Below are positions 7,146 through 58,402 of a stretch of DNA of 64,000 nucleotides, in pieces; position 1 is the stretch's first letter; the number at the start of each line of letters is the position of its first letter. Where the stretch lies: positions 513,359 through 577,358 of the forward strand of contig JAJEKV010000186.1 in the NCBI GenBank assembly GCA_021234155.1, read 5' to 3'. Below the pieces are notes generated by a model that was given only the letters and a program-made list of their open reading frames with translations, was not told the origin of the DNA and ran no database searches. The translations under genes and the position numbers were made by a program. Source of the stretch: Isoetes taiwanensis. Taxonomy: Eukaryota > Streptophyta > Lycopodiopsida > Isoetales > Isoetaceae.

Positions 7146-7156
7146 GAGCTTAAAAC

Positions 7157-9094
7157 ATGTCGGTGGCGCAGAGTAAGCCGCTCACGGTAGCGGCAACAGG
7201 GGAAAAGTCGGCAACAGGGGAAAAACAGACACGCGATGGTTCTGGTAGGAAAATCGGGGGCTCTGAGCCCCTGCCGGATGTCGCTATACCCAGGCCTGCA
7301 ATAGCGGCGTCCTATGGAGCAGAAAAAATCGATGGCGGAGAGATAGAGCGTGGCACAGGTATTTGGGGTTTACAGGGACAGAAGGAAGCGGCTCTGGTGA
7401 GGCATGGGGTTTACAACGGCTCTGGTGAGGCTTGGGGTTTACAGGGACAGAATGAAGCGGTTCTAGTGAGGCAGAACGAAGCGGCTATTATGAAGCATGG
7501 CGTGATTGCAGGAGAAAACACAATGCTGGAGGAAACAAGCCAGAAGTTTGGAAAAGATAAAAAAGGGGTAAGCAATTCCATGAATTTTTGTACTGATGGT
7601 AAACATGAAGGGCTTGAAAATCGTGGAAGCATGGACTCCACTGTAAGCAATAATGAAAATAAGAGTTTTAATCACTGGAAACAGGGCAATACTTTAGAAA
7701 GAATCGTAAGACCCAGGTTTTCTGAATGGATTAAGAAAGGAATTCCAAACGAATCTCGTAGCAACAGAGTAGAAGAGGCCTTGAATTCCCTCTCCTCTAA
7801 AAACTTGTCTGCCAATTTAGAACAGCTCCTTCAGTCAGCAGGTATCAAACCAGAAAATGGCAATCTTAAAGTAACAGAGATAAGCCACTCAAGGCATATC
7901 AGGAATATGGAAAATCTAATTTCTAAGGCAGTGGTGGGATTTTTTACGGGAGGTTTTTTGGACTACAGGAAACTACAAAACTGGCTCACAAGGCATCTTG
8001 CTGCTCTGAATATGCCGCAATTTCAAACCATCAAAGCTATTGGGAGTAATTTTTTCCTAATTCTATTTGATGATGAGAAAGCAGTGGAAAAGATAGTCTC
8101 TAGGGGTGTAGATCGCTTCGCGGGGGAATTTGTGCTATACCAATACTATACTCCAGGTTTCACCCCAGATAAATTGTCCGCTGTTAAACTTCCCTGTTGG
8201 CTTGAGATAGAACAGCTTCCAATGGATATGCTTGACTCAGAATTTTTAATTGCCATAGCAAAGAGCCTGGGGACATACATAACTCACTCGATCGCAAAGG
8301 GACCAAGGATCTGTGTGGGCATTACAGCAGCAGAAGGCATTCCACAATTTACTCTCGTGCGAAGTGGGACATACTATTCCTTATTCAAGTTGAGACTCAT
8401 AAACGGATGGGAGATTAGAAGGATGTTCCCCACAATGGAAATTAAGGGTCTGGAAGATTGTTTTGTGTTCGGGAGAGAGTCACAAGGCAATGTCAAAGTA
8501 GCAGCAGAAAAGACAACCAAGCTACCAGAAAAAACAACCAAGCTGCACGACAATATTAAAGTAGCAGGTGAAAAGGTAATAGAGATAAATGGGGAAGAAA
8601 AGGGAAAAGACCATCTAAACCCAGGTGAAATGGAATGTGACGTTTTAATGCCATCTAAAGTAAACTCAGAACTAGACAAGAGGCAAGAGCGAGGGGTAAA
8701 CATTGAAAAGAAAAAGGAACAGGCAAATGAAGATGGGTGGGCCACAGTGCAGCACAGAAATGGTGGCAGAATTAAAAATCAGATGCGAAAGAGGTTGCCC
8801 AATCCCGGAGGTACCATAAAAAATCTCACAGGTCATAACTATCCCAAGGTGCAAGAAACTGTAGAGAATCACAACGAGGAAGTACCAACTGAGTATATGG
8901 CAGTAGAATATCAAGCTGCTAATGAGGAGTTTCCAGTGCATAACAATAGATGGGCGGATTTACCAATGGATGAAAATATAGAAGATCTTGTTGATGGAAT
9001 GCCAAGAAAAAAGAGGATTATACCAAGATCGGAAGAACAGTGCTATGAGACAACATCATCCAGTCAACCGAATGTGTTCTCTAATGGAATATAA
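7157..9094 (+). CDS. LINE ORF1 protein, DUF4283-like nucleic-acid-binding domain
   Basis: An uninterrupted 645-residue frame, the first ORF of the LINE. Plant L1 ORF1 proteins bind the element RNA and form the ribonucleoprotein used in retrotransposition. Residues about 250-430 match the plant DUF4283 pattern: KAVVGFFTGGFLDYRKLQNW, then FQTIKAIGSNFFLILFDDEK, WLEIEQLPMDMLDSEFL and a GPRICVGI turn. The CCHC zinc knuckle that often follows DUF4283 in plant elements is not seen. The N-terminal 150 residues hold an imperfect internal repeat around WGLQGQ (7365-7460). The C-terminal third is charged and low in complexity, ending in a basic KKKR patch. The start ATG is about 11 bp from the element edge. 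Codon use suggests nothing beyond element origin. Confidence 0.85.
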   Translation: MSVAQSKPLTVAATGEKSATGEKQTRDGSGRKIGGSEPLPDVAIPRPAIAASYGAEKIDGGEIERGTGIWGLQGQKEAALVRHGVYNGSGEAWGLQGQNEAVLVRQNEAAIMKHGVIAGENTMLEETSQKFGKDKKGVSNSMNFCTDGKHEGLENRGSMDSTVSNNENKSFNHWKQGNTLERIVRPRFSEWIKKGIPNESRSNRVEEALNSLSSKNLSANLEQLLQSAGIKPENGNLKVTEISHSRHIRNMENLISKAVVGFFTGGFLDYRKLQNWLTRHLAALNMPQFQTIKAIGSNFFLILFDDEKAVEKIVSRGVDRFAGEFVLYQYYTPGFTPDKLSAVKLPCWLEIEQLPMDMLDSEFLIAIAKSLGTYITHSIAKGPRICVGITAAEGIPQFTLVRSGTYYSLFKLRLINGWEIRRMFPTMEIKGLEDCFVFGRESQGNVKVAAEKTTKLPEKTTKLHDNIKVAGEKVIEINGEEKGKDHLNPGEMECDVLMPSKVNSELDKRQERGVNIEKKKEQANEDGWATVQHRNGGRIKNQMRKRLPNPGGTIKNLTGHNYPKVQETVENHNEEVPTEYMAVEYQAANEEFPVHNNRWADLPMDENIEDLVDGMPRKKRIIPRSEEQCYETTSSSQPNVFSNGI

Positions 9095-12000
9095 AATCCT
9101 TTATTTGGAACATCGGGGGTAAAATCCTCACGAATCCAAAGCGCGTTAGGCTATCTCTAGCATTGAAAAAGATTTCCCGGATATTGTTTGTTTTCGGGAA
9201 CATAAATGTAAGAAGGAAGAAGTTGGGGTTTTGCTTAACTTACTAGGAAAAGATTATATGGGTATCATGTCGATCTAGCGGCGGAGTTCTAGTCGCGAGG
9301 AACCTTTATTGCATGGAGAAAACAATTGAAACTTCTATCGACATATCTGAGATAATTTTGGGAGGTGCTAATAGTAACCTGGTATGTTCATGGTAAAAAA
9401 TGGGGAGTGATAAATATTTACGCACATAATCAAGCCGGGCAAAGAGCTTCCTTATGGGCGATGTGAAAAACAAACCGAAAAACTTTTTGACAGAGATACC
9501 GCGGTGGATTATGGTTGGGGACTTTAATATGGTAGAAAGTAGTAGTGATAGATATGGAGGCGGGATCGAAGTTGTACATGGATTTGAAAGGGAACAATGG
9601 TTGAGCATGCTTAACTTAATTGGGATTCATGGAACTGAGGGGAGATCCAGGCTTCACATGGTGTAATGGTTGGATTGGTGATGGCAGGGCATATGCACGG
9701 CATGACAGGTGCTATGTAAGCTCTCACGTCTTACAAGAAAGGAACATGTCATTGTACCGTCATAATCTCTTAGAGAACTCTATTTTCGATCACAATCCAT
9801 GATTATATGCTCTTCTAGAGTTAGTACCTCTAAACCATTAAAGAGGTCTTGATTGAACCCAGATTTCTAAGGGGCCTTGATTTTAAAGATCAATGTAAGC
9901 AGATTTGGACAAATGGCTAGTAAAACAAACAGGGAATGGAAGCAATGATTGCGTCTCTAGCAGCAATAAAAAATTTTGCTAAGGTGTGGGGTCGTAATAA
10001 GGTGGCCGAGGAAAATGCTCTATTGGAGTCACTTTATAAAGAATTGACAGAGCTTAGAAGAAGTGATATTGGCTCAGGCGAAAGGGAAAAAATAGTTCTA
10101 GAGAAAATTAAGAGAATAGAACAAATCAAAATTAAACAAGCTAAAGTTAAAGCAGGACCCGACATGGATCAAGGAAGGTGACAAATGTCTGAGTGTTTCT
10201 TTTTTTAGAGTTGCAAAGCGAGAGGAAACAAGCAGCCACATTGTCCTCAGTGCAGGTCGAGGATGGATCCATTATCCGGAACCCACAACAAGTGAAGGAA
10301 TTTGTTTCTAAACATTTTGAAGACTTCTTCAAGAAGAAAAACATAAATTTTCAAGATTGCTTTGAAGAGTTAATTCTTTCTAAAGTTGTATCTAAAAGTA
10401 TCTTCTAGGCAAAGGGAACAACTTCGACCAACCGTTTGTCCGTTGAAGAGATGCGTGAGGTCGCCTACTCTCACGGCCAAAAATAAATGCCTGTGTCTAG
10501 ATGGCATTCCAGCAGAATTCTTTTCGGGAATATTGGGAATGGGTACAACCACTTGTGTACGATGCTTATCGGGACTTTCTACAAGCGGATCGGCTTGATA
10601 CGTGAGACTAAACACTTTGGATGTATCACCTTAATCCCAAAGGTGAAGGAACCAAGTCCATAGGGGACCTGGAGACCTATTACATTGTTGTCAACCTTCT
10701 ACAAAATTATAGCAAAAGGTTATGCGAAAAAAAATAAAACCTATTTTGGTGGAGCATATATCCGGACGTTCAATCGGGATTTATTCCAGTAAGTATTCTC
10801 GGTAATATTATTGGGGTTTGCTTTTGAAGGCATACATTGGGCGAGAAAGACAAGTCAAAAAGTGCTTTATTTAAAGCTTGATTTTAAGAAGGCATATGAC
10901 AGTGTGAGCTGGTCCTTTTTGGAAAAGATGTTGCTTGCTTTTGGCTGTGGACAGGAATTCACCAATATTGTTGCAAAGCTATTGAAATCATCGCGTGCAT
11001 CTGTGTTAGTTTTAGGAGAGACCTCCCCTATCTTCGATGTAAGCAGGGGCATTAGACAAGGATGTCCCTTGGCGCCTTTCCTTTTTAACATTGTTGCAGA
11101 AGGACTATCTCAAGTGCTACTAGCAGCAGTGGAAGATAAGGTTATAACAGGGCTGCAGATGACAGATGGATCGCAACAAATCTGTAACCAATACGCCGAT
11201 GATACTTTTTTGTTCCTAGAAGCCTCGGAAGATAACCTTTTGAATGCTAAACATCTATTGGATTCTTTCTCTATAGCATCAGGTTGTTTTCTCAATTGGA
11301 ACAAATGTGCAGCTGTTTGGCCACTAGATGAGCCTCTTCCGACTCATGTTACCACTTTCCCTTGGACCATAATACCTGTTGGGTCTTCGTCAAAGTTGCT
11401 CGGCATTCCAATCGGGGTATGCACCTCATCCTCGAACATATGGGATGAGATCTTACTCAGTTTAGACAAACATTTGAGATGGTGGAGGGTTAGTAAGCTC
11501 TCCATGGCAGGAAGGATTGTTGTAGCTAACCGCTTAGCAAGGTACTCACATTTATCTTTGCATCGGTGATGTTGGCGCCTGAATCAAAGCTAGCAGAGTT
11601 ATCAAAAATGGTGCGAAACTTTATCTGAGGTGGAAATGAAGAGGGGGCAAATGTCAAAGTTGCATGGGAAAAATGTTTGAGATCCAAATTTAATGGGGGA
11701 TTAGGAATGCTTGACTTCAAGTTGCATAGTAAAATCCTAGTCCGCAAATTCATGTGGGAAATTCTTCAGCGAGGATTCGAAATCTCGGCCTTGAGCTTCT
11801 AAAACAATCTCTAACTCATTTATGCGCCTTTGAGGAAAGTCATTTCATAAAGGCGGATGCCTTTGGGCCCTCTTTTATAAATTGAGACCATATCACGAGG
11901 AGCCTCGCCATTTCTTAAAAGGTTTGTTAAGAGCTTGGGAGGCAAGTAAAAGTTCTTTGGCGCTGGACATCAAAAATTGTACCTCGTATCCATGCCCTTG

Positions 12001-12862
12001 TGGTGGTTGCGGTGGAAACCAACAGAGGCGGGTGCCGCTTTTCTCGGTGGTGAATAAAAGAACTCAAAGCGGATGGATTGGGGCAGGTTTATCTTGCATT
12101 GGAGATTGGTATCGATGCGTGTCTGAGTGTTCACGGGAGTCATTCCAAGATAAGTTTAACTTGAGAATGCGAGATAAGCGAATTTGGAGCATGGTGCGAG
12201 ACAATATTCCGCCTTATGCGACTCCACAAGTAGGTGCTTTCTGCCCACCTCGCGAAAATCTTAACAAAAAACAGTTTGTTTCAAAGGCATACAAGGCCCT
12301 GCACGTGAATGAATTGATAAGTCTCCCCTCTCAATGGGAGTTAACATTAGAAGATAACCAAGTCACCCAACTATGGAAAGGGATCTGGATCAGGAGCCAC
12401 TTGCCACCAAAGGTATCCACGCTATTATGGCAAATTTTTCATAGAGCAATCAGGGTCAACATATTAGTGAGCAGGTTCAACAGTGATGTATCACCGAGTT
12501 GCCCAATGTGTGGGCAAGAAGTAGAAACAATTGAACACTGTCTTATGGATTGTAGAGAACTCCGCTCAGTATGGGAAAAATTGAAGGATGCGTTTGAGAC
12601 TTCTATTTCAGAAAAGGAGATCTTGCTAGGTTTATATCCATCATCTTGGCAAACTGGAAAAAGAGTTGCTTTGAATATATGCAAGGGATGGCTTTTATGG
12701 CTAATATGGAAAAGGCGGAGAAAATTTGTGTTCTCCCAAGAATATCTCCACCCTGATAACCTATGGCCCTCTCTGAAACAAAAGGCCCGCCAATACCTTG
12801 CAGCATTTGAGGAGGAGGAATGGGCTTCCCAAGCCCGCGACTTTCTCTCATCACTCTTATAA
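9092..12862 (+). pseudogene. LINE ORF2 remnant: endonuclease, reverse transcriptase, zinc-binding domain
   Basis: Follows ORF1 directly. The endonuclease (9092-9790) is spread over several frames: FIWNIGG at the start, a frameshift near 9175, SSGGVLVARN after another near 9270, INIYAHNQAGQ near 9412, VGDFNMVESSSDR at about 9515-9550, and RHDRCYVSS near 9695. The reverse transcriptase follows: LIPKVKE near 10633, LDFKKAYDSVSW near 10880, the GIRQGCPLAPFLF turn near 11050, and catalytic YADD at 11192-11203, all but the first inside an open 252-residue frame (10811-11569). The C-terminal frame (11882-12862, 326 residues) carries the zf-RVT signature CPMC...H...C at 12500-12552. At least six frameshifts or stops break the ORF, so no functional protein is expected. 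Confidence 0.88.
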
Positions 12863-24194: not shown

Positions 24195-27100
24195 ACCCGT
24201 GTTTGATTTAATTTATACAATAAGAAGTAACAGATTTGGAACAACAGATAATGGTAATGGTGGGCTGGCATGTTATGTAAGATCACGATATAAGGAAGTT
24301 GTGACATGAATTAAACATGATAAAAGCGGCCAATATATATGGTTGGAGATAAACGGTTCACAAGCAGTATATTACATGGCCATTTGTTACTTTGCTCCAT
24401 ATAATGAAACCGAAGCTTCACAGGATTATCCTTTCTTTGGAATTGAACAGGACATTATGGATTTTCACTTTAACAGTCGAACAGGTGATAAACAGGCAGC
24501 AGTTTATATAGAGATGCACGACCCACTTTGGTTAGAACAAATGGACAATGACGAATAACAGCTAATGGTTGGAATAGACGTTCACAAGATCATATCATTA
24601 CTAAAACAGATCGGTTTTTATTAACATTATGCTGCAGTACTAACATGATTATATGTAATAGTTTGGACAGATTTCTAGGGACGGAGAGAACCACCTGTAG
24701 ATCCAGAAGCATTGTTGACTATGTTATGATGGTAGATCATACGTTACATCAAGTTATAGATTTTTAGATTGGGGAAGAGCAGCTGGAGTCAGATCATTGT
24801 CCATTGAAGCTAACTATTGCTGCCATTGCATCAGAATGGAAAAGCGAGAATACCACGCAGCCTAAATATTATCTCAGGCCTAGTTTGAAGGAGTGCTATC
24901 AGGCTAAGCTGGAGCAAGATCTGCATACCATTAAATGGGACACAGACTTGTCAATGGCTAGCAAGAAATTATGTGACCCGTTATCAGGCACCGCTATAGA
25001 GGTTTTTACATCCAAACGAAGTGTGAAAGGGCTACCATGTAATGCAGGAGTAGTATGATTCTGCTTGTAAAGAAGCGAAATCTAAATGAAGGAGTAGTTA
25101 TGGAGTGGCTAAAGAACAGTATAGAAAAGCCTACAGGAAGCTAATCAGGCAAAAGAAAAGGCGATTTATCTATCATAAGCAAGAGTTCCTATGTAACAGC
25201 TACCTATCTGATCCTAAAAACTTTTGGAACACACTGCGCAAAATCAGAAAACAGGAATTCCCTCTAGACTCGAATGTACTTTGGAAGCATGTGCACAATC
25301 TTTATCATCACTCAGATGGGAACCTTAGTTCTATTCAGAATAATCGATTAAATTTGTTAATCTCAGCAGAAGAAGTGGTTGATGGCATATCACGGCTGGC
25401 AAATAGTAAGGCCAAGGATATTCAAGGCCTTTGTGCAGAGTGTCTGAAATGGGCAGGGCCAAAACTCCATGCTATCATTGTTGATCTGTTCACAAAAGCA
25501 ATAACACAGGGAATGCCCTTGGAGTGGCAGGTTAACAGGGTGATACCAGTATATAAGGGAGATGCCACGGTGATACTAATAATTATAGAACAATATTGGT
25601 AAATGGATTGTTAACAAAGCTGCTGGCATCCATTTTAGAGAAGAGAATAAGTATATGGGCAGAGACTAATCACAAAAGATCTGAAACACATGCGGGTTTT
25701 AGAGCTGGAAGATCCCGATAGATCATCTACTGGTGCTCAAATCAATATTTGACACAATGAAGGGGACCAAGAAACCTGCTTATGTAGCCTTTGTAGCTTC
25801 AGAAAGGCCTTCGATAGAGTACCTAGATCTCAGCTACGAAAGAGACTGGATAAGATGGGGGTTCCAGAGCAATTGCGAGCAACAGTGCAAGTGTTATATG
25901 AAAAGGTACTAATACAACTCTCCTTTCCTCTTTCTTTAGAAAACCCGGAATATATTGATAGTAACATTGGGGTCAAGCAAGGCTGTTCAATGTCACCTAC
26001 TCTGTTTGGATTGTTTATTGATAATCTTGAGGATTGGCTACATAACAATTGTTCAGAAGGGACAGATAGTCATGGTTATATAGTACAACTCTTGATGTAT
26101 GCCGATGACGTGGTTATTTTTGCTTGATCACCAAGCTCCAGGCAAAAACATTTAGATGGACTAGCCAAATTTTGTGATGCCACGAGAATGCAGGTGAACC
26201 TAGAAAAGACAAATATCATGCCAGTAGGTGCGCTTAAACAGGAGTGCTCATTTCAATATAAAGGAAAGCAGCTGAATGCTTGTGATTCATATAAGTATTT
26301 AGGGCTGATTTTTCACAGAAATCATAGATGGAATACATGCATCCAACAGAGAATTGATGGAAGCCATAGAGCTCTTTATGCTATGCAAAGTTTGTGCAGA
26401 GAGGCTCATTTTTGGTCTTGGTCGCTCAAACAAAAACTTTTTGTATCGCTTGTTCTGAGTGTGGCACTATATGGGAGTGAGATATGGGGGCCCAGCCTCC
26501 CGCTGGGGTTATGGGACGATTTGGCGCAGAACTTAAAGAAGTTCATACGCCTTGAATTAGGTGTAAAAGCTCAAACCCCTTATCAGATGATGTTGAGGGA
26601 ATGTGGGATTATGCCTTTAGAAGGAGAAGCATTGGTTAGATGCATTAGATACTTGAAAAAGGTGTCAACCATGGATAACACACGACTTCCTCATAGAGCT
26701 CTTTTGGGCAGTAAGGATAAAGGATGGTTCCAGGATGTGGTTAAGTGGTTAAAGAAATGGGATATTGATTGGCAAGATGCCCTTCTCATAAAGGATAACC
26801 TGCAACAATGGATTTTTGATAAGGTACATAAGAAGATGTGGTCTCAACCTAAAATGAAGATGATTATGTACAGGCAAAACATGAACCCTGGCTTGGAAGT
26901 GGCTAAATATCTACAGTAAAATATCTCCATAAAGAAAAGACATGCAATAGGGCGGATTCGTCTAAGCTCACATCATCTGGGAGTGGAAACTGGGAGATGG
27001 GGACATATTGTTCCTCGGGCAGAGAGATATTGCAAGATTTGTGGAGAAGAACAAATAGAAGATGAAGGTCACACATTGCTTTGCTATATAGTGCATATCA

Positions 27101-27384
27101 TTCTTTGAGGGCACGACATGGGGTTCATATCGAGGATCTTCACACCTTCTTTACTATGGAAGGTCATAAGATTGGGGAATACTTATTAGAATTACTGAGA
27201 TGTAGAGAGAATTGTTTGAGAAGATTGAATAGTATCTTAGATGATGAAGACATGTTGAGTGAGAGTGCGAGTTAGATGAGGACTCTGAAACTCATCTACT
27301 CTTTTATGATACCGTGTAAAATTTTGGTTGTCTTTTAGGCCTTTGAGGCCTCCCAGAGACTTAATACACTTCACTTCACTTCTC
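24195..27384 (+). mobile_element. non-L1 LINE, 5'-truncated, with (ACTTC)n-like tail
   Basis: Decayed non-LTR retrotransposon of a different lineage from the L1 copies at 6.5-14.7 kb: its endonuclease uses an FNSRTGD version of the GDFNxRTG motif, its polymerase block reads MYADDVVIFA, and it has a long C-terminal region ending in a CxxC...H...C knuckle. The 3' end is gcctttgaggcctcccagagacttaatac followed by a short acttcacttcacttc tail. The 5' end is cut within the endonuclease domain. Candidate clades are CR1/L2-, jockey- or Dualen-like; I cannot decide by eye. Confidence 0.8.
24204..27275 (+). pseudogene. LINE ORF2-type polyprotein remnant (endonuclease, reverse transcriptase, zinc knuckle)
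   Basis: Frames read in order as follows. Endonuclease: GGLACYVRSRY near 24262; YFAPYNETEASQDYPFF near 24390; FNSRTGD near 24472; the LDRFLG and SDHCPLKL motifs near 24662 and 24797. A linker frame is at 25105-25602 (165 residues, LWKHVHNLYHH, then SKAKDIQGLCAE). Reverse transcriptase: GFRAGRS near 25697, FRKAFDRVPRSQL near 25800, VKQGCSMSPTLFGLF near 25970, catalytic YADD at 26098-26109. An open 243-residue frame (26188-26919) holds the thumb (NLEKTNIMPVG, YKYLGLIFHRN) and LYGSEIWGP. The tail has CKICGEEQIEDEGHTLLC near 27036-27088. More than five stops or frameshifts make it inactive. Confidence 0.82.
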
Positions 27385-27432
27385 TTCTCTCACTGCTCTC
27401 TTCTTTCTTTCAATTCTCTTTTCTTTCTCTCT
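27360..27432 (+). repeat. pyrimidine tract resuming after LINE
   Basis: After the acttc tail, TC-rich sequence (ttctcttctctcactgctctc, then ttctttctctctcttct) returns. It matches the composition of the tract at 23675-24182, which suggests that the LINE inserted into one pyrimidine tract. Confidence 0.6.
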
Positions 27433-27582
27433 CTTCTAATAATTTAATTTTCAATATTGCTTTTGCAGGGTTACTTCACCTTCTGTCGGTTTGTCAGCTT
27501 ATCCTTTGTCATGAGTTTTTATTATTCGATAGATCTAGTTCATTTTTAAAATCAAATAATAAGTTATTGGGGGAGGAAAAAA

Positions 27583-28190
27583 GGGTGATTCATGCAAGGA
27601 CATGGTCATCTCTACCTTGAGTGGAGAGGACTGAGTGTTCGGGTCTGAGTCCCTTATCAATTTATACTTTTTTTATTTTCTTCAGTTTTTAAAGTAAAAG
27701 TCCCGGTGACTTATGTAAGGACATGGTAGTCTCCACCTTGAGTGGAAAGGACTGGATGTTCGGGCATGAGCTCCATTGTTTACTCCTAGATAGTTTATTC
27801 AGTTTTATATATTAGAAAAAAAAAAAAAAAAAAAATCAAGAGGGTGACTTAGGCAAGGACACGGTCGTGTCCACTTGAAGTGGAGAGGAATGGGTGTTTG
27901 GGTTTAAGCCCCTTATCTATTGCACTTAGAGGCCGTTTGTCTAGGTTTATAGTATAGAAAAAAAGATCAAAGGGTGACTTATGCAAGGATATGGTCGTCC
28001 CTACCTTGAGTGGAGAGGAGTACGTGTTCGGGTATAACCTCCTAACCTATTGCACTCAAAAGTTACACTACTTTGGCTTATTTGGATTATTAGATTAGGA
28101 AAAAAGCAAACAAACAGGTGATTTAGGCAAGGACATGGTTGTCTCTAACTTGAATGAGAGGACTGGATGTTCGGGTCTAAGCCCTTTTGT
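27583..28190 (+). repeat. five spaced copies of a ~73-76 bp hairpin-bearing, tRNA-like unit
   Basis: Copies start at about 27583, 27704, 27842, 27972 and 28115 (offsets 121, 138, 130 and 143 bp). Each has a ggtgac/ggtgatt start and an A-box-like gacttaggcaagg. A conserved central hairpin follows (left arm gtctctacc, loop ttgagt, right arm ggagaggac). A B-box-like gtgttcgggtc comes next, then a gggtctaagccc hairpin. Most copies are preceded by an A-rich run (poly(A) of about 21 before copy 3), and some are followed by T runs. The core length is close to a tRNA, but no cloverleaf with a proper T-loop is evident. It may be a SINE-like or Pol III-derived array; function is unknown. Confidence 0.75.
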
Positions 28191-29032
28191 TTACACCTTG
28201 TCACTCTTATTTAAAAGTCATTTGTTTACACTTGACCATGACGGAGACCAAGACCGAGACCATGACCATGACCATGCAAGAGAGGACTTGGGGGATCGAG
28301 AGAGATATTAGGATTTGAATCATGGCTTAAAGTTTACATTGAACTATGTTATAATGTAGATGTTTAGAGTGCATTTCTAGGTTTAGAATTTAGGGATTAA
28401 AGCAAAGGGCTTGACAATGTTGAAGCTCGGCTTTGTATGTTCTTTTTCCAAACTATAAAAATTAGTATACAAGAGAGGGTTTAAGGTGACGGTAGGACGA
28501 GAATTATATTTTAGAGTGCACTTTGTATGCATCTTATCAACATCATCAAGGGTCTTTCACTTTGTAAGAAAGAGGACCTTAAAGAAGGAGAGGGTTTAGG
28601 GAACGAGAGAGTTGTTAGGACTTGAGTTAGCGCTTATCCCCTGAAGTTAGGCAATAGCTTGCCCCTGGACATTGTTCGAGTCCACTGGCAATGATGGACT
28701 TTCCTTAATATTCTTTGCACGTACCCTTATCATGGGAAAGGCCAAGCCCTTCCTGCTCGAAGAAGTTTCGATGGGGCTTCTCATTCTTGTCATCGTGACC
28801 CTCCTTGTCATGAGCCTCATCCTGAGCCTCAACATGTACGACATAATTTCATTCTTGCGCAAATTCATTTCGGTATTATGTCTTCGGTATATATGTAACT
28901 AATATTTGTCTAAACCAAAATTAGTAAGGAGCAATTACCGACTTTTGATGCGGCAGACGATAAACATTTCTACGCACGTCTTTGACAAATTTCTGACAAG
29001 ATCATTGATGCCGTACACAAGAGAGTGGACTT
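28191..29032. other. intergenic DNA with short GACCATG repeat
   Basis: A run of gaccatg/gaccaag/gaccgag heptamer-like units spans 28231-28278. A phrase near 28285 (gagaggacttgggggatcgagag) is loosely repeated near 28585. Short frames at 28647-28902 on both strands show no family motif. No gene is supported. Confidence 0.5.
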
Positions 29033-29590
29033 CATGGTCTTGCAATCTGTAATCCATTCAGAATTGCTACATAATTCACAATCAAATTGTTAGTAATGAC
29101 AAAAACATTTCTATTTGAAATAATAGGTCAAATAAATACATGATACAAGTTACACGAATAACTCAGATTGGCCAAGCTGTAGTTCACCAAAACCAGAGCT
29201 AGATCCAGATACAATAACCAATCTATGGTAGTTCACCAACCAACAGGGTCAATCGGCGCTAAGATTTGGCAGAATTATGCCAAGACCTGATAATCAGCTT
29301 CCACTAGCAGCTCCTCCATCGACCTAGTAGTCCTCAATATAGAATACCAAGTGTTAGGCTTAGGGATAGTAATAGGTTATTGAATAAGAACAGCAGGAGC
29401 TCTAGGAAAAAGTAATGGTTTCTTAGAATCTGATTCAAGAGTGAAAGAGTAGAGCAGTCTTCTTTGACCCCCTGTCACTCTTTCGGCCATATCTCCCTCA
29501 TGTGGATGGACTACGAAAAGTGCCATCCCAGTTTGAAAACTAGACTCCGAGATGGTTCTGGCGGAGTAAAAATGGCCTCAATAGGAGCTC
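29033..29590. repeat. ~550-bp direct duplication, copy 1
   Basis: Starts catggtcttgcaatctgtaatcc and runs to ggcctcaataggagct. It matches 29991-30530 along its whole length with scattered substitutions and small indels, roughly nine in ten bases by eye. Confidence 0.9.
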
Positions 29591-29990
29591 TAGAGCAAAA
29601 AGCAATCCATTCAAGTCAATTAAATGTACACGCAAATATTCATCTTCAGTCTCCATAACCACGTTATCACATAAGCTTCCTATTGTGCTTACATCCACAA
29701 AATTCTTTTGGAAATCAAGGCTTAAATTAGTCAATTTTTGAAGAACGTCAGCAAGGTAGTGTAAGACATAGACGACCTGAAAAATTACAAACATGTATCA
29801 GCCATATTAATTCAGAAACATTAAAAAAACAAACAAATTTACCTTAAGTATCTTAGATTAGGAGCACCATAACACTGCCAAAATATGCCACGAATATACC
29901 AAAATATGCCACAGATATTGTTGAGATCACAGCAATGAACAACATCCTTTTATATCTCTGAACATTTATTCAAGGTTTCTTCAGATAATT
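29540..29990 (-). pseudogene. two-exon remnant, possibly of a DUF4371/hAT-like transposase
   Basis: On the minus strand an upstream piece ends QCYGAPNLRYL at a GTAAAT donor (about 29843). A ~75-nt intron follows and ends in ttgtaatttttcag. The next exon reads VVYVLHYLADVLQKLTNLSLDFQKN..., then VDVSTIGSLCDNVV and LIDLNGLLFALELL (29777 down to about 29590). The helical LADVLQKLTNLSLDFQK phrase resembles the middle of plant zinc-finger-862/hAT-like proteins, but this is a pattern match from memory. The upstream piece has an in-frame stop. The remnant lies between the two copies of the ~550-bp duplication and its end runs into copy 1. Confidence 0.35.
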
Positions 29991-30530
29991 CATGGTCTCG
30001 CAATCTGTAATCCATTAAAAATTGCTATATAATTCGCAATCAAACTGTTAGCAATGATAAAAAGGTCTCTATTTGAAATAATAGGTCAAATAAACACAGG
30101 TCAAATAAATACATGATATTAGTTACACGAATAACTCAGATTAGCCAAGCTCTAGGTCACCAAAACTAGAGCTAGATCCAGATAATAACCAACCTATGGT
30201 AGTTCACCATCCAACAGGGTCAATCGGTGCTAAGATCTGGCAGAATTATGGCAAGGCCTTACAATCAGCTTCCATTAGTAGCTCCTCCATTGAGCTAGCA
30301 GTCCTCAATATAGAACACCAAGAGTTAGGCTCAGGGATAGTAATAGGTTATTCAACAAGAACAACAGGAGCTCTAGGAAAATGTAATGGTTTCTTAGAAT
30401 CTTGTTCAAGAGCGAAGGAGCAGTTTTGTTTTTAACTCTTTTGGCCATATCTCCCTCATGTAGATGGATTATGGAAAGTGCCACTCCAGTTTGGAAACTA
30501 GCGGAGTAAAAATGGCCTCAATAGGAGCTT
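29991..30530. repeat. ~550-bp direct duplication, copy 2
   Basis: Partner of 29033-29590, offset about 958 bp at its start and 940 bp at its end. It has its own 16-bp micro-duplication (aggtcaaataaa twice near 30087). Confidence 0.9.
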
Positions 30531-57261: not shown

Positions 57262-58402
57262 ATGGAAGGAAGCATTGCGCTGTTTGTTTGGTTTCTGGCT
57301 AGTTTGGTGAATCAAGCGAACGGATTTGCGGCCGGAAACTGGAATGGAGCGCATGCGACCTTCTACGGAGGAAGCGATGCTTCTGGCACGATGGGTAAGT
57401 GAAATTTTTTCGATTAGATGGGACCAAATTGGGTAAAAATTTCTGATTTGAAATGGGTTGAATGAAGGTGATCTGAGATGGGTTTTTTTTTTTTTTTTAG
57501 GTGGAGCTTGCGGCTATGGAAATCTGTACAGCCAAGGCTATGGGACGAACAATGCGGCGCTGAGCACAGCTCTGTTTAATGGGGGAGCTGCGTGCGGAGC
57601 ATGCTTCGAAGTCCGGTGCGCAAACGATGCAGAATGGTGCCTTCCAGGCTCCATAACTGTCACTGCCACAAATTTCTGCCCTCCAAATAACGCCCTTCCC
57701 AACAACGCCGGAGGCTGGTGCAACCCGCCGCTGCAGCATTTCGACATGGCCCAGCCTGCTTACCAGCAAATCGCCAAATACAAATCCGGCATTGTTCCTG
57801 TCCAGTACCGCAGGTAGATCTTTGGTTTTTTCTTCTCGGATCATCTCCAGATTTCTGCGTTTTTTTTTCTTCTTCCATTCATATAACCAGATTCCTGTTT
57901 ATTTTTTGCTTTAAATGATTGATTAGTTTTCATTTGATTCCTGGGTACTTTTCATCGAATAAAAGGACGGTTTCTTTCTGGGTTCTTTAGATCAAACTCC
58001 GAATGTCTGTTTTCATTTATACCGGATCAAATCTTAGATCGTTTTTAAAACCTGAAGATCTTTGCACTGATGTCTGTTTTTTATTTTTACTGTTACAGAG
58101 TGCCCTGCGTGAGAAAGGGGGGAATCCGATTTACGGTAAACGGCCATAGCTACTTCCAGCTTGTGTTAATCACGAATGTGGGCGGTGCCGGAGATGTGAA
58201 GGCAGTATCGATCAAAGGGGATAAGACCGGATGGCAATCTATGAGCAGAAATTGGGGCCAGAATTGGCAGAGCAATGCATATCTTAACGGCCAGAGCCTG
58301 AGCTTCATGGTCACAACCAGCGATGGCAAAACCGTTACATCCTTCAATGCCGCTCCTTCAAACTGGCAATTTGGCCAGACTTTCTCCGGCGCCCAACTTT
58401 AG
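57262..58402 (+). CDS. EXPA: alpha-expansin (EXPA), 3 exons, 249 residues
   Basis: Secreted cell-wall-loosening protein that acts at cellulose-xyloglucan junctions without known hydrolysis, allowing turgor-driven growth. Exons 57262-57394, 57501-57813 and 58099-58402 join in frame with GT-AG introns at the two classic alpha-expansin positions (GTMG/G and YRR/VPC). Residues 1-21 or so form a signal peptide. The double-psi beta-barrel domain carries [15 protein letters not shown] (46-59), cysteines 48, 76, 79, 84, 91, 104, 118 and 152, and the alpha-expansin insertion [18 protein letters not shown]. The HFD motif is at 124-126 (usual HFDL is HFDM here). The C-terminal binding domain (about 160-249) keeps tryptophans 194, 201, 205 and 238, and ends [14 protein letters not shown]. 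Length and all key residues are normal. A candidate poly(A) signal is at 59001. The alpha class is certain; the member number is not. Confidence 0.97.

Follow-up and report, generated by a model that had tools for sequence, protein, structure and literature searches.

Five tandem RNA hairpins in Isoetes taiwanensis, probably the relic of an old CACTA-like transposon lineage

The 64,000-nucleotide stretch of Isoetes taiwanensis DNA analysed here (the window) carries, on its + strand between positions 27583 and 28187, five units of ~72 nt, which we read as tandem RNA hairpins of an old and decayed lineage of CACTA (En/Spm)-like transposons. We put the probability of this reading, which takes in both the identity of the array as an RNA hairpin array and its carrier, at roughly 0.7. 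What the window preserves is a fossil copy; its hairpin array is real, and is neither tRNA-like nor an ordinary satellite. DNA transposons are characterised through their ends and proteins, and the open-access literature yielded no description of internal tandem arrays of covarying hairpins in CACTA elements; the RNA hairpin array of this lineage is apparently undescribed. If the reading is true, CACTA transcripts would carry a selected RNA structure in the form of a conserved internal array, which would matter for understanding their control over their own splicing or their escape from silencing. The array is also a ready family model for the annotation of many copies, and because its hairpins covary, small-RNA and RNA-seq libraries could put the question directly to the test.

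The five-unit array that a first-pass annotation had picked out from the letters of the window stands. A search within the window with the unit consensus finds the units at 86-92% identity (E 1e-20 to 5e-26), and a covariance model run over the whole window at E<=1 returns the five array units and no other match. Start-to-start distances are 121, 138, 130 and 145 bp, which keeps the lower end of the 121-143 bp spacing originally given and corrects its upper end to 145. Within the window array the cores are 82% identical (65% when shuffled) and the spacers 73% (68% when shuffled); with core identity well over its shuffled value and spacer identity barely so, the core is the conserved part. A-rich runs lie 5' of units 1, 3, 4 and 5, as had been said of most cores; of the T runs said to follow some of them, the clear one is after unit 1.

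Unit 1 (27583..27655) folds with a z-score of -3.5 on the + strand and -0.1 on the - strand. The corresponding values are -2.3 and 0.2 for unit 2 (27704..27775), -4.4 and -1.2 for unit 3 (27842..27914), -1.3 and -0.3 for unit 4 (27972..28043), which is partly decayed, and -2.6 and 0.0 for unit 5 (28117..28187); the four window spacers score -0.7, 1.4, 0.2 and 0.9. Since the unit z-scores are low on the + strand only, the structure of the window array belongs to + strand RNA. Two units from the related families described below as B and C were also folded: there the - strand is structured as well (z -3.4 and -3.1), with the + strand folding better (z -4.3 and -4.0).

In single-sequence folds each unit is one long imperfect hairpin of ~66 nt that takes in nearly the whole unit. 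At its base is a closing helix of 7 bp, followed inward by a 2x2 internal loop (AA/GG), a pair of short helices, a second internal loop that is 2x2 or 1x1, and a tip of 6 bp capped by a loop of ~5 nt. The AA/GG loop is near-invariant among units; the closing helix is paired and variable in sequence. All three families retain the two 2x2 internal loops and share a conserved mid-section in either arm; in general, the inner part of the hairpin is conserved in sequence and the outer helix mainly in pairing. The central stem recognised at first (gtctctacc/ggagaggac) is real, though it is merely the tip of this longer whole-unit hairpin. The gggtctaagccc hairpin of the earlier reading is also taken up in it: this sequence is the 3' arm of the closing helix, and its partner is the 5' end of the unit. 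The word gtgttcgggtc, once thought close to a Pol III B box, is also one arm of the closing helix, where the sequence drifts freely while the pairing is kept.

The genome (1.66 Gb in 1,110 contigs) was searched with the unit consensus, which gave 482 candidates; 40 of these were scored and gave 63 matches. Three transposon families that have diverged from one another, A, B and C, carry the unit; their copy numbers are given here as first-look candidate counts. Family A comprises a few copies of five-unit arrays with related flanks (the window, C1078/L036, C1052/L039 and C1037/L037-L038). Family B (L018-L022, L027-L035 and L040-L042), a repeated element, has hundreds of candidates and as many as four units, and family C, which was reached via the outlier L045, has up to six units and over 1,100 candidates. 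In all three families the array lies downstream of a pyrimidine-rich leader, and in A and B it lies upstream of the coding part. In C1037 (L037 2577-6490), amplification in ~1.5-kb segmental repeats has affected the first part of a family A array.

The suggestion that the array is not an ordinary satellite is borne out by its not being limited to this locus and by the presence of its units in three transposon families. Units of the same ordinal position at different loci are identical to the extent of 0.82 (A), 0.93 (B) and 0.94 (C), and units of different ordinal position to 0.74, 0.76 and 0.69, respectively. Since ordinal identity is kept across loci, whole arrays have evidently been copied with the element and not homogenised in the manner of a satellite. 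Homogenised monomers and open-ended arrays, the hallmark of a satellite, are not what is found; an array has 4, 5 or 6 units, and the individual unit is recognisable from locus to locus. In recent copies, core and spacer identities are close to equal: 0.876/0.908 between the window and L039, 0.829/0.836 (L036) and 0.821/0.869 (L038) within family A, and 0.945/0.936 among ten copies of family B. Because core and spacer diverge equally in them, recent array copies look dead, drifting freely once copied. Core-only conservation is seen just between units and between families. Spacers as well conserved as cores, which the first-pass annotation had listed as telling against a selected or mobilised unit, are therefore found between recent copies and not between units or families. 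As judged from these alignments, the constraint is one that acted in the lineage ancestral to the families, that is, in the deep past of the element.

For the analysis of covariation, 45 units were aligned by sequence alone and tested against a structure chosen beforehand from single-sequence folds. In this set 90.1% of the cells of that structure hold standard pairs, and 45 are doubly changed, as against 16±6 in shuffles, figures that the choice of structure before testing somewhat favours for the full hairpin; slid controls are all far lower, at 33-50% paired. With 22 family C units added (67 units from three families), 88.5% of cells are paired (84.7±0.4% in shuffles), and 62 are doubly changed against 20±4 (with a maximum of 29 in 300 shuffles), although the aligned units are paralogues and such counts overstate the number of independent events. 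By eye, at least 3 or 4 independent changes can be made out in the closing helix, which reads CTTATGC/GCATAAG in a family A unit (L39_4), CTTGGAC/GTCCAAG in family B and CTAGGGC/GCCCTAG in family C. RNAalifold, given the 45-row alignment, returned the 4-bp tip alone and did not recover the full hairpin. Among the 67 units, G·U cells outnumber A·C cells by 257 to 61, and among the minority states of Watson-Crick pairs by 114 to 55. This excess fits selection on the sense RNA; DNA-level symmetry or cytosine deamination alone would make the two equal. The compensatory changes in the stem that the first-pass annotation had proposed to look for across copies are thus present in both sets of units when compared with shuffles, and its reading of a selected or mobilised RNA-like unit gains support from them, as it does from the hundreds of transposon copies and from ordinal identity. 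The matched two-sided changes suggest that the shape of the RNA once mattered for the element.

The nature of the carrier is clearest in family B, whose termini are CACTACAA (at L032 9877-9884 and L042 1505). The L032 element ends in ...GACGTCGTAACAGGGCTTCGATTTTGTAGTG and the L042 element starts with CACTACAAAAATGTTGCCCTATTACGACGTC; in both, a terminal CACTACAAAA...GCCCTGTTACGACGTC is accompanied by GACGTCGTTTAACGACG subterminal motifs. GC-rich repeats of the GACGTCGTTTAACGACGTC type adjoin the terminus in L032, L034 and L042, and the subterminal repeats of the family are GACGTC-rich. The terminus pattern has 355 matches genome-wide and its reversed control has 0. Among the 100 terminus matches listed, at least 24 sit 1.5-1.9 kb 3' of the conserved family B exon (VHKGEW...ISWREV) and face inward, as is expected for the right end of the element. 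The array lies 5' of that exon, on the same strand and in the same order, at 13 loci; array, conserved exon and terminus thus come in a fixed order. On these sequence features, family B is a CACTA (En/Spm) element. No Pfam transposase domain was found in the reading frames of the family B copies examined, which are probably non-autonomous; the Tnp2-type DDE transposase belongs to autonomous members only and is likewise absent from non-autonomous CACTA copies, and the assignment of family B therefore rests on its ends. In family C, analogous GC-rich repeats are found on both sides, with the array ~1 kb away from these subterminal-like repeats and not inside them.

A Pfam and PDB sequence search assigned no family to the reading frames of the element. 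The VHKGEW...ISWREV exon (L034 1769-2029) is mostly open in more than 100 copies at 60-90% identity, a pattern as if under coding constraint, and by eye it looks Myb/SANT-like. The first long frame of family B (L042 3810-4700; L034 2972-3730) looks by eye like a degenerate kinase domain, for which Pfam and PDB provide no support.

Splice sites flank the array in family B. Of 17 copies, 15 have a canonical 5' splice site, TAG|GTAAGAAT, at 52-65 nt 5' of unit 1; ~300 nt past the array there follows a 3' splice site, TTTGTAG|GTATGGCC, with an ATG immediately after it. In family C, each of the ten copies compared has a canonical 5' splice site (TTG|GTAAGTTG, with CTG in one copy) 57-58 nt before unit 1. 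These sites would place the array within a leader intron of the sense transcript of the element, and the B and C arrays are probably intronic, occupying the first 5'-leader intron of the predicted transcript. In family A, no recognisable 5' splice site was found in the window.

The window copy retains several parts of such an element, all on the + strand. A pyrimidine-rich leader tract 5' of the array (27361..27455) is homologous to L036 from 4479 onward and has its equivalents in L031 and L040 (family B) and in L047 and L051 (family C). Beyond the array, 28290..29030 is the 3' part of the family A element, 85% identical to C1052 next to its array; this 741-bp segment has 8 matches at 7 candidate places genome-wide. 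It includes a short reading-frame remnant with a hydrophobic stretch (28732..28851; MGKAKPFLLEEVSMGLLILVIVTLLVMSLILSLNMYDIIS), seen in the sequence and with a counterpart in L039, and a fragment of a conserved exon (28944..29021; DKHFYA...) that tblastn matches at 85% to the L039 exon. With a single stop read through, that L039 exon gives 84 matches across the genome, the majority being family B exons; the exons of the two families are 31-37% identical, with a best E of 1.1e-9 genome-wide. Because the exon is homologous, family A can be regarded as a low-copy, old relative of the B CACTA elements. A search near the array for a CACTA...TAGTG terminus gave nothing convincing in the window, L036, L038 or L039, and calling family A CACTA rests on the array and the homologous exon.

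At 29031 the window element is interrupted by a later insertion (29031..30529), which self-comparison delimits; homology to L039 stops at 29034. Two direct copies of ~550 bp at 82% identity, 29031-29589 and 29989-30529, flank its central ~400 bp, and it resembles a small, old insertion of LTR type. No continuation of the element was found beyond it. From the sequence comparisons, the window copy is very probably an insertion-interrupted relic of the CACTA lineage of family B.

What the hairpins did is a matter for more tentative statement. In families B and C the array would be transcribed in the sense direction inside the first 5'-leader intron, and the hairpins would have worked in cis for the element: most likely they formed a platform of repeated binding sites for a protein, encoded by the element or by the host, that would control the processing of the element's transcript; in the copies examined this function would no longer be under selection. 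A protein-binding RNA platform would be expected to combine conserved inner sequence, a paired outer helix and retained loops in this way, and it is our first choice among functions, held at somewhat under even odds; precursors of small RNAs would rank next, and a purely structural role in splicing after that. A more general proposition, which takes in either the protein platform or an anti-silencing small-RNA cluster, is that a plant DNA transposon lineage carries, in the leader intron of its gene, a dedicated structured-RNA array that has undergone compensatory evolution through at least three families and acts as a regulator in cis or in trans. We advance it with more reserve.

That the hairpins are precursors of small RNAs, forming a polycistronic, miRNA-like intronic cluster that acts on a host gene, seems to us rather unlikely, though there is a good precedent: in rice, pre-miR820 resides inside CACTA elements, targets the methyltransferase gene OsDRM2 and counters silencing (PMC3459959). 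The Isoetes hairpins are likewise hairpin RNA carried within a CACTA element; they are sense, stable, tandem and probably intronic, and their mid-arm sequences are conserved across families. However, the 2x2 loops that all families keep are not needed for Dicer-like processing, Rfam miRNA families all score below cut-off, and the resemblance to miR820 is within chance (29 of 300 shuffles are as good), so that homology to it was rejected as not significant. The systems differ in make-up, too: in rice, the precursors of miR820 derive from OsDRM2 fragments captured by a few copies of a single family (PMC3459959), whereas 4-6 tandem hairpins have here been kept through three diverged families. An action on splicing that is structural only, the hairpins looping out intron sequence or keeping the first intron in a form that is spliced or retained, without a specific ligand, would suit an array lying between a canonical 5' splice site and a 3' splice site in family B, as well as the proposal that the first introns of CACTA transposase genes matter for expression and may have regulatory value (PMC4158355). 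Pairing alone would not require the near-invariant loop and arm sequences, however, and family A is without visible splice sites; we judge this role unlikely.

Could the pairing have been kept at the level of DNA, by long dyad sites for transposase, by cruciforms or by templated repair of quasi-palindromes? CACTA elements do have repeated subterminal motifs that form stem-loops, as in soybean Tgmt* (PMC2613891), an element that resembles family B in its CACTACAA ends, GC-rich subterminal repeats and intron-containing internal genes. Its stem-loops are short motifs in the terminal borders (PMC2613891), in contrast with the present hairpins, which are 66 nt long, have conserved internal loops and make up an internal, fixed array that probably lies within a leader intron. 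DNA-level causes are strand-symmetric, but G·U states far exceed A·C and the window units fold unusually well on the sense strand only; templated repair would remove the internal loops, and the family C array lies outside the subterminal-like repeats. We regard such an origin as distinctly improbable. Less probable again is an ordinary, functionless minisatellite grown inside a transposon. Tandem arrays inside CACTA elements are known from Chenopodium (PMC8978399), and the equal divergence of core and spacer in recent copies is what such a repeat would show; the Chenopodium array, though, is a captured satellite near the 3' end, and the present one has few units with ordinal identity, lies towards the 5' end and has covarying stems. 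Ordinal identity across loci with no homogenisation, compensatory change across families and spacers that are far more diverged than cores between units all speak against a minisatellite. The first-pass annotation had suggested a tRNA-derived Pol III unit, which, like a multimer of SINEs, we consider scarcely credible. The 72-nt size of the unit and the T runs after some units fit that reading, and an exact B-box word does occur in one unit of family A and five of family C. Yet these make only 6 of the 67 units, and an exact A box occurs in 0 of 67; ARAGORN and a scan of Rfam found no match, the fold is a single long hairpin and not a cloverleaf, and the copies are fixed arrays within larger elements. 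On these grounds the tRNA/Pol III reading was rejected.

The neighbourhood of the array includes other elements. Just upstream, on the same strand, are LINE reverse-transcriptase frames (25090-26919; RVT_1, E 1.4e-14). The array was considered as a set of LINE 3'-UTR repeats; the LINE frame ends at 26919, yet the leader that array copies at other loci have in common is another one, and the LINE was set aside as a neighbour. A second LINE (DUF4283, RVT_1, zf-RVT) is found at 7154-12862, and at 57452-58402 exons of an alpha-expansin-like gene can be recognised by eye.
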